The translations under genes and the position numbers were made by a program. A DNA stretch of 64,000 nucleotides from an uncultured cyanobacterium (GTDB taxonomy: Bacteria > Cyanobacteriota > Cyanobacteriia > CACIAM-69d): assembly GCA_937883785.1 (NCBI GenBank), contig CALGDE010000167.1, positions 1 through 64,000 on the forward strand. The letters are read 5' to 3'. The stretch's first letter is position 1, and every line of letters begins with the position of its first letter. The notes beneath the pieces are model-generated. The model was given only the letters and a program-made list of their open reading frames with translations, searched no databases and was not told the DNA's origin. Shown one piece after another: positions 15,882 to 20,037 of the stretch.

Positions 15882-15925
15882 AAATTCCTCGAATCACCGA
15901 CCCAAAGCCGGTCACCGAGGAATTT
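15882..15925 (-). terminator. Intrinsic terminator of the sigma/Spy operon
   Basis: AAATTCCTCG and CGAGGAATTT form a 10-bp stem with a smaller ACCG/CGGT pairing inside. On the minus strand the stem runs into TTTTTTT, a textbook Rho-independent signal 54 nt after the last Spy-like gene. Confidence 0.85.
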
Positions 15926-15978
15926 GAGACAAGTTGATACAGAGTTGCGATCAGAATGAAATCAAAACGGAGAGAAAT

Positions 15979-16452
15979 TTATTGTTGGCGCTGCTGACCT
16001 CCCCGACGCTGTTGACGCTGGGCGCGGCGCTCTTCCATAAGCTGCTGTGCCTGTTGGCGCTGGGTTGGGGTTAGGACGGCGAACATCTCCTCCCGCGCCT
16101 CGGATCGTAGCGCTTTCATTTCTTCGCGGATGGCTTGGCGCTGGCTTTCGTCGGCGTTTTGGGCGCGCGATCGCAGTGCCTGGAACTGGGGACGATAGCG
16201 ATCGCGAATGGCTTGGATTTCAGTTTTTTGCGCGTCGCTTAGGTTCAGTTGTTCCGCCCAGCGCTGCCCGCCCCGCCGGCGACCTTGACCACCGCCCCGC
16301 TGGGCTAGGTAGGTGCCGTCGATGGCTTCTGCTTGGGGAGCATTAGAGGTGGTGGCGATCGCCTTCGCGTTCCCCAATAGGGAAAGACCGGAAAGGGCGA
16401 CGCCCACGGAGAGACAACCAGCGGTGATTAGGGAAAATTTACGGCTAGACAT
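15979..16452 (-). CDS. Spy/CpxP-like periplasmic protein, copy 1
   Basis: 157 aa from ATG 16452; a longer frame to 16560 has no supporting start. An N-terminal basic-hydrophobic signal peptide (SSRKFSLITAGCLSVGVALSG) is followed by a Gly/Arg patch and a helical domain with two LTxxQ-type elements: LNLSDAQKTEIQAIRDRY and VLTPTQRQQAQQLMEERR. This is the pattern of Spy/CpxP/CnrX proteins, periplasmic ATP-independent chaperones or stress sensors. The very basic Gln/Arg tail is unusual. It is a paralogue of the next gene upstream (16581-17186) and is last in the ECF sigma operon. Confidence 0.82.
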   Translation of the reverse strand: MSSRKFSLITAGCLSVGVALSGLSLLGNAKAIATTSNAPQAEAIDGTYLAQRGGGQGRRRGGQRWAEQLNLSDAQKTEIQAIRDRYRPQFQALRSRAQNADESQRQAIREEMKALRSEAREEMFAVLTPTQRQQAQQLMEERRAQRQQRRGGQQRQQ

Positions 16453-16500
16453 AATTTTTAGGTGCTTGGAGTTGTTGATTGCTGAGCAGTGGGTCAAACA

Positions 16501-16552
16501 AGTTGATGAGACAAGTTGACGCAGTAAATTGACAAAACGAATTGACGAGATG
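16501..16552. repeat. Four 13-bp degenerate tandem repeats between the spy genes
   Basis: TTGA occurs at 16503, 16516, 16529 and 16542, exactly 13 bp apart, within units such as AGTTGACGCAGTA and AATTGACAAAACG. The array sits in the leader of spy copy 1. Confidence 0.65.
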
Positions 16553-16580
16553 CCCCCCATAAAGGGTTTGGATCGTGAAG

Positions 16581-17186
16581 CTACAAGTTGCCACTCTGAG
16601 GAGCTGCACCGGGACCATCGCCGCGACGTTCGCCACGGGCACGACCGCCGCCGCGTCCCCCTCGGCGTTCTTCGCGCTCCGCCATGCGCTGAGCCATTTG
16701 CTGCCGCTGCTCTGGGGTAAGCACTGTCCGCATTTCCAACATACTTTCAAACCTGAGGTTGCCTTTAGACTGGCGCAGTTGCTGCAATTTTTGGTGCTGG
16801 CTACGCAGTTGGTCGTTGCTGGTGTTGGGGTTAGACATTAGCTGGCGCATTTGATCCTTCGCGGCTTTGCCCTCGGCCCGTTGCTGCTCCATTTGGGGGC
16901 GATATTTTTCCTTGATTGCCTGCATCTGCGTTTGCTGAGCTTCGGTAAGGTTCAGCTCCCGTAGCCAGCCAGGTCCGTTGCCTCGTCGTCCCCGACCGCC
17001 GCGGGCATCTTCAGCGGCAGGATCGCTCTGGGCAAGATACGTGGGCTCAGCAGATTCGATTTGAGCATCGCCAGCGGTGGAGTTGGCGGTGGCATCTAAA
17101 CCGAGTCCCAGGTGGGGAAGGTAAGCCAAGGTGGCTCCGGCGAGCAAGGATCCAGCAGCAATTAGGGGAAATTTGCGATTAAACAT
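16581..17186 (-). CDS. Spy/CpxP-like periplasmic protein, copy 2
   Basis: 201 aa from ATG 17186. It has a signal peptide with the same FNRKFPLIAAGSLLAGA style as its neighbour, an acidic linker, an Arg/Gly patch, then LNLTEAQQTQMQAIKEKYRPQ and, 70 residues later, VLTPEQRQQMAQRMAERE, the two LTxxQ motifs of the Spy/CpxP fold. The C-terminus is Gly/Arg-rich. It lies 80 bp downstream of the anti-sigma gene. Tandem paralogy plus position suggests that both Spy proteins are outputs or sensors of this sigma system. Confidence 0.82.
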   Translation of the reverse strand: MFNRKFPLIAAGSLLAGATLAYLPHLGLGLDATANSTAGDAQIESAEPTYLAQSDPAAEDARGGRGRRGNGPGWLRELNLTEAQQTQMQAIKEKYRPQMEQQRAEGKAAKDQMRQLMSNPNTSNDQLRSQHQKLQQLRQSKGNLRFESMLEMRTVLTPEQRQQMAQRMAEREERRGGRGGGRARGERRGDGPGAAPQSGNL

Positions 17187-17196
17187 GGTGTTTTCT

Positions 17197-17240
17197 CGGT
17201 GAGTATTCGGTAAATATCCGGTGAATGTGAGCAATGCGGT
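17197..17240. repeat. CGGTGA-type direct repeats in the spy copy 2 leader
   Basis: CGGT(G/A)A occurs at 17197, 17208 and 17219 (11-bp period) and again at 17237. The array lies just before the ATG of spy copy 2 (minus strand: repeated TCACCG). Confidence 0.6.
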
Positions 17241-17266
17241 GAATTTGCGTCAGCTTGTTGACCGAT

Positions 17267-17815
17267 TTACATTCCGCTGGTGTCCCAGTAGAACGGGCTG
17301 AAGTCAGACGAGTCGGAAGTGTCGGTGGATGTGGTTTGAGCGATCGCCCCATCCCAGCTATTTTCCAAAAACGTTTCCAGCTCCGTCTCGCGCCCAACGT
17401 TAGCGCCAGAGTTACTGTCAAAGTTGCCGTCAGAATCAGCATCAGCGAACTGGGCTCCCATGCCCGACGGGCTGGTCAAGGCTCCAAAGGTATGCCCCAA
17501 ACCGGCACCCACCACTCCTGCCGCGATCGCCCCAATAATTCGAGGCCAACGCTTTGCTTTTTTCGGGTTATTAACAACAGTGCTAGCGGGAGTGGGCTCC
17601 TGGGCGATCACCCTTATCAAATTCGCCTCAAAATTGGCGGGCTCTGGCGGAGGTTCTGGGCGATATTGGCGCAGAAATGTCACCAGGTCGCGATCGTCTT
17701 GGTGGGTAGTTTTGGCCAAATCAGGCAAATCCTCAAAGCTGCCGAAGGGAAGCGACTCAGAATTACGGTTAGAAATCGACTCATTTTTTTTAGGATTTTG
17801 ATTATCGCGATTCAT
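17267..17815 (-). CDS. Putative membrane anti-sigma factor
   Basis: 182 aa. The cytosolic N-terminal part (1-85) includes DRDLVTFLRQYRPEPPPEPANFEANLIRVI, the kind of helical domain found in cyanobacterial anti-sigma proteins. One hydrophobic segment follows near residues 90-115 (IIGAIAAGVVGAGLGHTFGAL), then a Ser/Asp-rich outer tail. There is no zinc-binding HxxxCxxC. Its start overlaps the sigma gene stop by 4 bp (ATGA), implying translational coupling and a sigma/anti-sigma pair. The function is inferred from position and topology rather than a clear domain. Confidence 0.72.
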   Translation of the reverse strand: MNRDNQNPKKNESISNRNSESLPFGSFEDLPDLAKTTHQDDRDLVTFLRQYRPEPPPEPANFEANLIRVIAQEPTPASTVVNNPKKAKRWPRIIGAIAAGVVGAGLGHTFGALTSPSGMGAQFADADSDGNFDSNSGANVGRETELETFLENSWDGAIAQTTSTDTSDSSDFSPFYWDTSGM

Positions 17816-18465
17816 AACTCAACTCCTTGGCGCTCTAATTCCTTGCGAAGGGCAGCGCGGGCAGAAAACAATCGAGACTTTACGGTTCCCACTGGCACAT
17901 TCAAAATTTGAGCCACATCTTTCTGAGGAATATCTTCCAGGTCACACAGCACAATAACGCTGCGGGCCCCGTCCGATAATGTCCCTAAAGCTTTGCGGAT
18001 CACATCTTGATAATGCAGGGCGGACCACTGTCCCGATGCCCCTTGGGAGGGGTCTGGCAAGGTGGCATCTAAAGGATCAGACACCGTTTGCTCCCGCTGG
18101 CGATCGCGGGCAAATTTTTTCCGCCGATCCATCGCCACATTCCAGGCAATGCGATACAGCCAAGTGGAAAAACTCGCTGATCGCCGAAACTTCGGCAACC
18201 CTCGCCACGCCCGCAGAAACACCTCCTGAACCAAATCGTCCAGCCCCGTTTCCCCACACAATTGATACAACGTTGATCGCACCCGTTGACCGTAGCGGCG
18301 ATATAAGCCCGCAAATGCTGAGCGTTTCCCTGCTAAACATTGGTCAATCAGCGTCAAATCATCCGCCATTTCTAGCGCCATATGCGGCTCGCCTTTCTCC
18401 GAGGTTACTTTCCCCGAATTTGGCATAGCCCCATCTGGCGTCGGCTGTATGGGAACGGTGGTCAC
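17812..18465 (-). CDS. ECF-type RNA polymerase sigma factor
   Basis: 217 aa. Sigma region 2 (about 50-115) has GLDDLVQEVFLRAWRGLPKF and FSTWLYRIAWNVAMDRRKK; region 4 (about 155-210) has LSDGARSVIVLCDLEDIPQKDVAQILNVPVGTVKSRLFSARAAL. There is no region 3, so it is an ECF sigma factor. It is first in a four-gene minus-strand unit: sigma, anti-sigma (4-bp overlap), then two Spy-like genes. Synechocystis SigH has a comparable neighbourhood as I recall, but I do not assign the symbol. ATG 18465 is taken; internal Met codons at residues 14 and 29 are possible starts. Confidence 0.92.
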   Translation of the reverse strand: MTTVPIQPTPDGAMPNSGKVTSEKGEPHMALEMADDLTLIDQCLAGKRSAFAGLYRRYGQRVRSTLYQLCGETGLDDLVQEVFLRAWRGLPKFRRSASFSTWLYRIAWNVAMDRRKKFARDRQREQTVSDPLDATLPDPSQGASGQWSALHYQDVIRKALGTLSDGARSVIVLCDLEDIPQKDVAQILNVPVGTVKSRLFSARAALRKELERQGVEL

Positions 18466-18684
18466 AAAAATCTGTCCCTTTCGCGCAAATTCACCAGTTT
18501 AGACAGCACCCCCCACAAAAAGGTTCAGTGGTTTTGAAAAAAAGTTCTCAAAAACTTTCGGGCGTCCTTGCCCAGGGATTTTCCTTGTCAAAATTCATCA
18601 AAAGAAACGGAAGAAATGGAATCAAGGGCAGGCAGGTCCGTTACCCTGTAAATACTTAAAAATTAATTGAACGACGACGAACCT

Positions 18685-20037
18685 ATGGCGGCAAGCACCC
18701 AGCGATCGCAAACCATGGACGCTCCCAAAGTCGGCCTGCCGGTCACCATCATCACCGGTTTTCTAGGCAGCGGAAAAACCACCCTGCTGAACCATATTCT
18801 CAGCAACCAAGAGGGTCTAAAAACAGCGGTATTGGTGAACGAATTTGGTGAAATCGGCATCGACAATGATCTGATTGTTGATGCCGGCGGCGATGGCACC
18901 ATGGTGGAGCTCAGCAACGGCTGCATTTGCTGCACCATCAACGACGATTTAGTGGACGCTGTTTATCGGGTGTTGGAGCGGGATGATCGTGTGGACTATT
19001 TGGTGGTAGAAACCACTGGTATCGCCGATCCGCTGCCGGTAGCACTGACCTTCCTGGGCACTGAGCTACGGGACATGACCCGCCTCGATTCCATCATTAC
19101 AACGGTGGATTGTGCCAACTTTAGCTTGGACTTGTTCAACAGTGAAGCTGCCTACAGTCAAATTGCTTACGGCGACATTATTTTACTGAACAAAACCGAC
19201 TTAGTGGAAAAGGACGCCGTTGATCGACTGGAGAAACGGGTTAACGAAATCAAGGCAGGTGCTCGCATCCTCCGCACCCAAAATTCCCAAGCGCCTATGC
19301 CTTTGCTGCTGAGCGTTGGCCTGTTTGAGTCAGATAAGTACTTTACTCTTGCTGAAGAGAAGGAAGCCCATAACCACGATCACGGGCATAGTCATGACCA
19401 TGGGCATGACCATAAGCACGATCATGATCATGGAAACGCCCACAACCATGATCACGGGCACGACCACAAACACGATCACGGGCACGATCATGGAAACCCC
19501 CACAACCATGACCATGGGCATGATCACAAACACGATCACGGGCACGATCATGGAAACCCCCACAACCATGATCATGATCATGGGCGCGATCATGGAAGCG
19601 CCCACAACCATGACCATGGGCATGATCATGGAAACACCCACAGCCATGACCATGGGCACGACCATAAACACAATCACGACCATGGGCATGACCATCACGA
19701 TCACGGCCATTCCCACCATTTAGATAACGATGGGTTTGTGTCGATTTCTTTTTCCAGCGATCGCCCTTTCTCCATCAAGAAATTCCAAAAATTCCTCGAC
19801 GATCAGCTACCTACTGACGTGTTTCGCGCCAAGGGAATTCTATGGTTTGAGGAAAGCCCTCAGCGCCATATTTTCCACCTGGCAGGCAAGCGCTTTTCGC
19901 TGGAAGATGAGCAGTGGAAAGATGACAATAGAAGTAACCAGCTTGTACTAATTGGTCAAAATCTAGATCAAGACACATTGCTGCAACAGCTCGACGCGTG
20001 CCTCGCCCAGAAAGAAGCCGTTGGATCTGGACGTTAG
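18685..20037 (+). CDS. COG0523 (CobW/ZNG1-like) metallochaperone GTPase with giant His tract
   Basis: About 450 aa from ATG 18685. G3E-family GTPase with GFLGSGKTTLLN (Walker A), NEFGEIGID, the metal-binding GCICC (CxCC), ETTGIADP and NKTDLV. Between the GTPase and the CobW C-terminal domain lies an exceptional His/Asp/Gly tract of about 115 residues (coded by about 19366-19719). The C-terminal domain (FVSISFSSDRPF to LVLIGQNLDQD) is intact. The family delivers Zn, Co or Ni to client enzymes or acts in zinc homeostasis; the His tract implies high-capacity binding. No Zur box was recognised upstream. A strong terminator follows. Confidence 0.9.
   Translation: MAASTQRSQTMDAPKVGLPVTIITGFLGSGKTTLLNHILSNQEGLKTAVLVNEFGEIGIDNDLIVDAGGDGTMVELSNGCICCTINDDLVDAVYRVLERDDRVDYLVVETTGIADPLPVALTFLGTELRDMTRLDSIITTVDCANFSLDLFNSEAAYSQIAYGDIILLNKTDLVEKDAVDRLEKRVNEIKAGARILRTQNSQAPMPLLLSVGLFESDKYFTLAEEKEAHNHDHGHSHDHGHDHKHDHDHGNAHNHDHGHDHKHDHGHDHGNPHNHDHGHDHKHDHGHDHGNPHNHDHDHGRDHGSAHNHDHGHDHGNTHSHDHGHDHKHNHDHGHDHHDHGHSHHLDNDGFVSISFSSDRPFSIKKFQKFLDDQLPTDVFRAKGILWFEESPQRHIFHLAGKRFSLEDEQWKDDNRSNQLVLIGQNLDQDTLLQQLDACLAQKEAVGSGR
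19366..19719 (+). repeat. Coding His-rich minisatellite
   Basis: Nested in-frame repeats of CATGACCATGGG and CACGATCAT type units make HDHGHDHKHDHGHDHGNPHNH blocks. Two neighbouring blocks near 19440-19560 are nearly identical at DNA level over about 60 bp, showing recent duplication. The length is likely to vary between strains. Confidence 0.9.

Follow-up and report, generated by a model that had tools for sequence, protein, structure and literature searches.

Does an extracytoplasmic function (ECF) sigma factor gene, followed by a membrane anti-sigma gene and two genes of the Spy/CpxP family, constitute one envelope-stress system, and does either Spy protein take part in sensing as well as in the response? 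The question is raised by a locus of an uncultured cyanobacterium (assembly GCA_937883785.1, genome of 4.84 Mb) on contig CALGDE010000167.1, which was analysed as a 64,000-nt stretch of DNA, hereafter the window. We consider it probable, at roughly 0.7, that the locus is a self-contained, autoregulated envelope-stress module with Spy chaperones as its output. The gene set, its conservation, the promoter and the distribution of that promoter are read directly from the sequences, and the features of the locus are the following:

18499-18527, minus strand: predicted ECF promoter, TGAACC-N17-GTCTAA, about 33 nt 5' of the GTG start of the sigma gene
17812-18465, minus strand: ECF sigma factor with a GTG start, most likely of the SigH type (NF009171, Pfam, ratio of non-synonymous to synonymous substitution rates, dN/dS)
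17267-17815, minus strand: membrane anti-sigma factor without a zinc motif, overlapping the sigma stop (no Pfam match; AlphaFold2 (AF2) helices)
17600-17707, minus strand: cytosolic part of the anti-sigma factor, predicted to bind sigma (two short helices, Pro-rich linker, FLRQHRPxxPP..LE)
17339-17398, minus strand: periplasmic helix of the anti-sigma factor, LExFLExxWxG, with a near-invariant Trp154 (AF2 helix 140-159)
17187-17226, minus strand: 11-bp repeat array in the Spy1 leader, ATTCACCGGAT-like units (shuffles, Tandem Repeats Finder (TRF))
16581-17186, minus strand: Spy1, operonic protein of the Spy/CpxP family, operon-specific residues retained (PF07813, AF2, tree, signature)
16728-16751, minus strand: Spy1 residues 146-153, carrying the signature F146/L150/R153 (alignment of operonic and stand-alone proteins)
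16488-16546, minus strand: 13-bp repeat array in the Spy2 leader, GTCAACTTGTCTC-like units (shuffles)
15979-16452, minus strand: Spy2, second copy from the duplication, lacking about 20 mid-protein residues, signature lost (PF07813, tree, dN/dS)
15882-15925, minus strand: intrinsic terminator of the operon (fold energy; terminator-like scan call at 15907-15887)

The original prediction had placed a sigma gene, an overlapping membrane anti-sigma gene, two Spy genes and a T-tailed terminator in a row, and all of these were confirmed on the minus strand, in the order sigma, anti-sigma, Spy1, Spy2 and T-run hairpin. The anti-sigma reading frame opens within the sigma stop codon (ATGA, a 4-nt overlap), and leaders of 80 and 128 nt precede Spy1 and Spy2, respectively. 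The hairpin at 15925-15882 has a folding energy of -24.4 kcal/mol (z = -5.2), a stability reached by none of 200 shuffles, and is the only strong terminator found on the minus strand downstream of the sigma start, lying behind Spy2; a plain terminator scan of the region alone was not above chance (5 found against 5.2 expected).

The sigma factor scored 251 bits against NCBIfam NF009171 (cut-off 208) and matched Pfam sigma-70 regions 2 and r4_2 with no region 3, an ECF architecture. It has no match in S. elongatus at E ≤ 1e-45, and a table in a 2009 review (PMC2758279) gives this organism SigG, SigI and SigJ and no SigH; the window sigma is therefore most likely of the SigH type, by elimination and not by direct comparison with a named SigH sequence. 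PsigH-73 of Synechocystis is described in a passage of the same review as RpoE-like. Compared with the orthologues of a same-genus relative (G001), dN/dS was 0.12 for sigma, 0.27 for the anti-sigma factor, 0.19 for Spy1 and 0.16 for Spy2, ratios that indicate purifying selection on all four genes between the two species.

The association of Spy with this sigma factor extends well beyond the genus. Within a class-wide set of 145 cyanobacterial genomes, the sigma was found at E ≤ 1e-45 in 76, with its position listed for 70, and at least 62 of these 70 have a same-strand Spy gene no more than 1.8 kb downstream; the count omits six sigma genomes of the 145 and uses the first 150 Spy positions listed, so that some Spy genes may be missed. 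The eight exceptions comprise a contig end and seven genomes of one family, f17 (G021, G039, G052, G065, G085, G095 and G105; loci L013 and L082, the latter named Gloeomargaritales). A Spy protein encoded elsewhere in f17 (L050) had no promoter of the type described below nearby on its coding strand. Among 30 relatives, sigma exceeded the cut-off in 20, 19 of them with a PF07813 match a short distance downstream. Our own Spy profile matched 39 of 42 non-redundant cyanobacterial loci, missing L013, L082 and the contig-end L072, and none of 56 loci from other phyla with more distant sigma factors. The gap between the anti-sigma and Spy genes has a median of 38 nt over the 39 loci (≤120 nt in 34), and no relaxed ECF promoter was found in it at any of the 39. 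On these counts, a sigma-anti-sigma-Spy operon is common to many cyanobacterial lineages, and the claim that these genes act as one envelope-stress unit is supported, the linkage to sigma holding for a single Spy gene.

The putative promoter, TGAACC-N17-GTCTAA, matches the window once (none in 100 shuffles), and its exact form occurs once in the whole genome, before this operon. Upstream of the 42 orthologous sigma genes, the strict form (spacer of 16-18 nt allowed) was detected in 26 and the relaxed form in 32, compared with 1/42 in the reverse-strand control; the spacer was 17 nt in 40/41, a figure biased in that direction by a scan that penalised other lengths. The surroundings of the -35 and -10 elements are identical base for base in G001, and the DNA farther upstream is not conserved. 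A 16-letter form of the promoter gave 10 matches in the 145 genomes (reversed control, 0), and a 14-letter form occurred at 119 sites, in 89 of 388 cyanobacterial genomes (reversed control, 8); sigma positions are listed for 152 of the 159 sigma genomes of this larger set.

All 119 sites were inspected for the downstream gene, with representatives named by Pfam and NCBIfam and a Spy-like target defined as a match to our own profile at E ≤ 1e-3 within 350 nt of the site. The sigma operon itself follows 39 of the sites and stand-alone Spy-like genes follow 28, while the remaining 52 are divided among HlyD/resistance-nodulation-division (RND)-type adaptors (10), group-2 sigma factors (10), S41 C-terminal proteases (3), small secreted proteins (5), ExbB-like genes (2) and 22 that occur singly or are not followed by a gene start; five of these represent a single intragenic site within one family. 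Sigma-bearing genomes, 159 of 388 overall, hold 51 of the 58 grouped non-self sites, with related genomes counted as independent. Because of this class-wide distribution, we conclude that Spy appears to be the main conserved output read from the promoter sites of this most likely SigH-type sigma factor.

The smaller target groups have features of their own. In 10 genomes a SigB/SigD-like group-2 sigma gene begins 77-186 nt behind the promoter (L165, L166, L170, L171, L173, L174, L183, L186, L193 and L246), which suggests an ECF-to-group-2 sigma cascade in these lineages. Sites before HlyD/RND-type adaptors are L154, L185, L199, L201, L203, L227, L229, L230, L234 and L252. The small secreted proteins fall into two groups (L247, L261 and L262; L257 and L258), start 18-110 nt behind the promoter and have no Pfam match over the cut-off, and the first group carries a repeated GxLTxxEYxxLQxR pattern. 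Exact promoter-like sites before ExbB/TolQ-like genes at L148 and L194 are due to chance or to another ECF sigma, and both probably belong to another system. Further targets in the window genome were sought and dismissed, the reversed control yielding more matches than the motif in relaxed searches (10 against 4 and 49 against 22).

The anti-sigma factor matched no Pfam family at E ≤ 0.1, and its profile gave six unrelated matches in the PDB up to E 10, none of them to CnrY. It had been said to lack the zinc motif, and this holds throughout: HxxxCxxC is present in 0/42 orthologues, the window's included. About 44% of class I anti-sigma domains likewise lack the motif, according to a passage in PMC7406223. 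The 42 sequences share the cytosolic pattern F-L-(R/K)-(Q)-(H/Y)-R-P..PP..LE, a membrane segment and an outer helix that carries W154; F47 and P56 are invariant, and W154 is present in at least 90% and missing in L016. AF2 modelling placed helices at residues 37-50, 62-72, 93-110 and 140-159, with a predicted local distance difference test score (pLDDT) of 89-92 in blocks 41-70 and of about 53-71 in helix 140-159. Two cytosolic helices are thus predicted, two helices wrapping sigma being a trait of class II (CnrY-like) anti-sigma factors. A link between a short anti-sigma tail and Spy loss (L013, L082) was discarded, given that the Spy-bearing loci L010 and L062 are also short-tailed.

Spy1 matches PF07813 at 49.8 bits and PF13801 at 46.9 bits, and Spy2 matches PF07813 at 29.2 bits (PF07813 cut-off 24.3); they are the sole PF07813 matches in the genome. 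A PDB search with the Spy family profile retrieved E. coli Spy at 2e-12. The AF2 model of Spy1, with pLDDT above 90 in the helical domain, matches the folds of CpxP, Spy, ZraP and CnrX, a comparison in which helical bundles match permissively, and the top Foldseek match was CpxP (E 8e-3, probability 1.00; Z 10.6 over 108 residues). Only L78, L80, Q84 and Q160 are invariant columns in 42 operonic Spy proteins.

In a tree of 71 Spy proteins, the four copies from the window and G001 cluster together (100/86), the two Spy1 sequences pairing with each other and the two Spy2 sequences likewise, and the topology therefore indicates a duplication within this genus after its split from its family. The two copies of G019 and those of Oscillatoria SIO1A7 are sisters in each case (L003 2446-3420 in Leptolyngbyaceae clean351, G019; L063 5132-6811 in SIO1A7), so that Spy would have doubled at least three separate times. 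The Spy pair as a general feature could not be upheld: two copies occur in at least three of the 70 listed genomes plus one Oscillatoria locus, through separate lineage-specific duplications. The 28 stand-alone Spy proteins are set apart from the operonic clade by a 100/100 branch, yet they have the same promoter. Operonic and stand-alone proteins differ at three positions, F146 (40/41), L150 (39/41) and R153 (41/41), each found in 0/28 of the stand-alone proteins. Spy2 of the window and of G001 has S/E/F instead of F/L/R, and about 20 mid-protein residues are missing from it. By manual count on the alignment, F146 of Spy1 corresponds to Met97 of E. coli Spy, described in a passage of PMC12503329 as a client-cradle residue crucial for chaperone function.

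In the mechanism that we propose, the overlapping anti-sigma factor would hold the ECF sigma at the inner membrane through its two-helix cytosolic segment and would release it when misfolded envelope proteins accumulate. The freed sigma may then recognise TGAACC-N17-GTCTAA before its own gene, and sigma, anti-sigma, Spy1 and Spy2 would be transcribed from there as a single unit. The exported Spy proteins would act as ATP-independent chaperones, relieving the stress and closing the loop. The use of the promoter by this sigma, the chaperone role of Spy here and the activating signal are the parts that we infer.

Several observations weigh against this module. The anti-sigma model is weak overall (pLDDT 63, predicted template modelling score 0.29); the Spy1 model has no Foldseek match at E ≤ 0.001, and its VIA Z scores, 10-11, are of a size that helical bundles can reach through their arrangement alone. 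Family f17 (seven genomes) keeps sigma and the anti-sigma factor without an operonic Spy, and the two f17 loci read, L013 and L082, still carry the promoter. The sigma is missing from the genomes with the two ExbB sites, 22/119 sites fit no target group, and in the window genome the motif with up to two mismatches shows no excess (22 against 49 in the reversed control). If the window sigma is SigH, passages in two expression studies also count against the module, sigH being down 0.30-fold under copper stress in Synechocystis (PMC4182526) and down at raised CO2 in Microcystis (PMC4419860).

How the signal reaches the anti-sigma factor may be explained in more than one way. At somewhat below even odds, Spy is output only: regulated proteolysis of the anti-sigma periplasmic helix, as in RseA, would carry the signal, neither Spy would touch the anti-sigma factor, and the Spy1 residues would be chaperone surface. 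The alignment of F146 with Met97 agrees with this, as do the stand-alone Spy proteins, which have the same promoter with neither an adjacent anti-sigma gene nor the signature, and the f17 family, whose retention of sigma and the anti-sigma factor (with the promoter in the two loci read) without an operonic Spy means that Spy is no obligatory sensor everywhere. It accounts less well for a signature that operonic Spy proteins keep almost without exception but that stand-alone ones do not have and Spy2 has lost, even though a client surface should be needed by all three kinds, or for an operonic clade that stays beside sigma across the class.

Rather tentatively, and by analogy with CnrX and CpxP, Spy1 may also belong to the input and dock onto the anti-sigma factor at its outer helix, with Spy2 as the freed effector. 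The more specific version is doubtful: the F146/L150/R153 face of the operonic Spy would cap the outer helix, misfolded proteins would pull Spy off and sigma would be freed, with Spy1 as gauge and Spy2 as chaperone. The private, nearly invariant face of operonic Spy proteins, not present in output-only ones, speaks for sensing; the existence of f17 without an operonic Spy and the overlap of this face with the chaperone cradle speak against it. The idea of an input copy and an output copy, put forward originally, thus stands in part: Spy1 keeps the operon-specific residues and Spy2 resembles stand-alone proteins there, but the pair itself is not general and the support is indirect. A pairing of W154 with the Spy signature was weakened as a candidate by L016, whose Spy has F/L/R and whose anti-sigma factor is without WxG. 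If true, sensing by Spy would make this an ECF-based chaperone-titration switch, a cyanobacterial counterpart of CpxP and CnrX. The natural Spy duplication in this genus offers a ready-made test of whether Spy senses or only serves.

It is improbable that the locus is a metal-sensing system of the CnrYXH type, in which metal-bound Spy1 would switch the anti-sigma factor. Spy1 does match the CnrX fold (Z of about 10.9 over 108 residues) and PF13801 (Metal_resist), the anti-sigma segment has two helices, and a His-rich CobW-type GTPase gene adjoins divergently. Against these points, the 42 operonic Spy proteins have no invariant His, Cys or Met, mature Spy2 has neither His nor Cys, no efflux genes follow, the gene order is unlike cnrYXH, and only the HlyD-type adaptor among the target groups could serve efflux. 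Just as improbable, if not slightly more so, is that the Spy genes are separate transcription units behind the sigma pair, their repeats marking regulation of their own, since the 80-nt and 128-nt leaders with non-random repeats are outweighed by the short, promoter-free gaps at the orthologous loci and by the position of the sole strong terminator behind Spy2.

Distinct 11-bp and 13-bp arrays had been reported before the two Spy genes. Both (17226-17187 and 16546-16488) are non-random, each matched by 0/500 dinucleotide shuffles, with TRF reporting the 11-bp array only (period 11). The 11-bp array is partly retained in G001; the 13-bp array is not recognisable there and is therefore no conserved part of the mechanism. 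RNA structure was rejected as a role for the repeats, both leaders being no more stably folded than shuffled sequences (z 0.02 and -0.48). One unit of the 13-bp array, TCAACTTGTCTC (16508-16519, minus strand), recurs at 15925-15938 (minus strand), behind Spy2 and just before the terminator; its presence on both sides of Spy2 is possibly a trace of the gene duplication. On the other side of the operon, a divergent CobW-type GTPase gene (18667-20037, plus strand) encodes a candidate metal chaperone with a very long His/Asp-rich repeat (HDHGHDH). It shares an intergenic region of about 200 nt with the sigma promoter, and a CobW-like start is also found upstream in G001.

The known systems nearest to this one include the SigH-type sigma factors (Synechocystis Sll0856, Thermosynechococcus Tlr0317), the window sigma being likewise class-wide and not found in S. 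elongatus. Their targets are given as not known in a passage of the 2009 review (PMC2758279), while here a Spy operon and a putative regulon are proposed from sequence data. In a literature search of titles and abstracts, with subscription papers mostly outside its range, no SigH regulon or cyanobacterial sigma-Spy operon was described. For laboratory strains, the promoter yields predictions of the transcription start, the operon and Spy as the main target, and the question of SigH targets thereby becomes directly testable. The sigG-sapG pair of cyanobacteria is similar in consisting of a conserved ECF sigma and a cotranscribed, interacting downstream gene, and differs in sigma type, with Spy not named in the passage concerned (PMC2758279).

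The architecture predicted for the window locus resembles that of CnrYXH of Cupriavidus metallidurans in an ECF sigma, a small membrane anti-sigma factor with two cytosolic helices, a periplasmic protein of the Spy fold and autoregulation, CnrYXH being described in passages of PMC4803752, PMC4598750 and PMC7406223. Unlike CnrYXH, the window system has the order sigma-anti-sigma-Spy, no conserved metal ligands and predicted chaperone outputs, and CnrY is not among the PDB sequences that its anti-sigma factor matches at E ≤ 10. The PF07813 LTxxQ family of the window proteins also includes Spy and CpxP of E. coli, Spy being a stress-induced chaperone and CpxP a feedback regulator. The E. coli spy and cpxP genes are driven by two-component systems, whereas the window Spy genes are predicted to be driven by the ECF sigma of their own operon. 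The parts are thus already known, and what appears to be new is their combination in an envelope response centred on Spy, driven by an ECF sigma and tied to a defined promoter.

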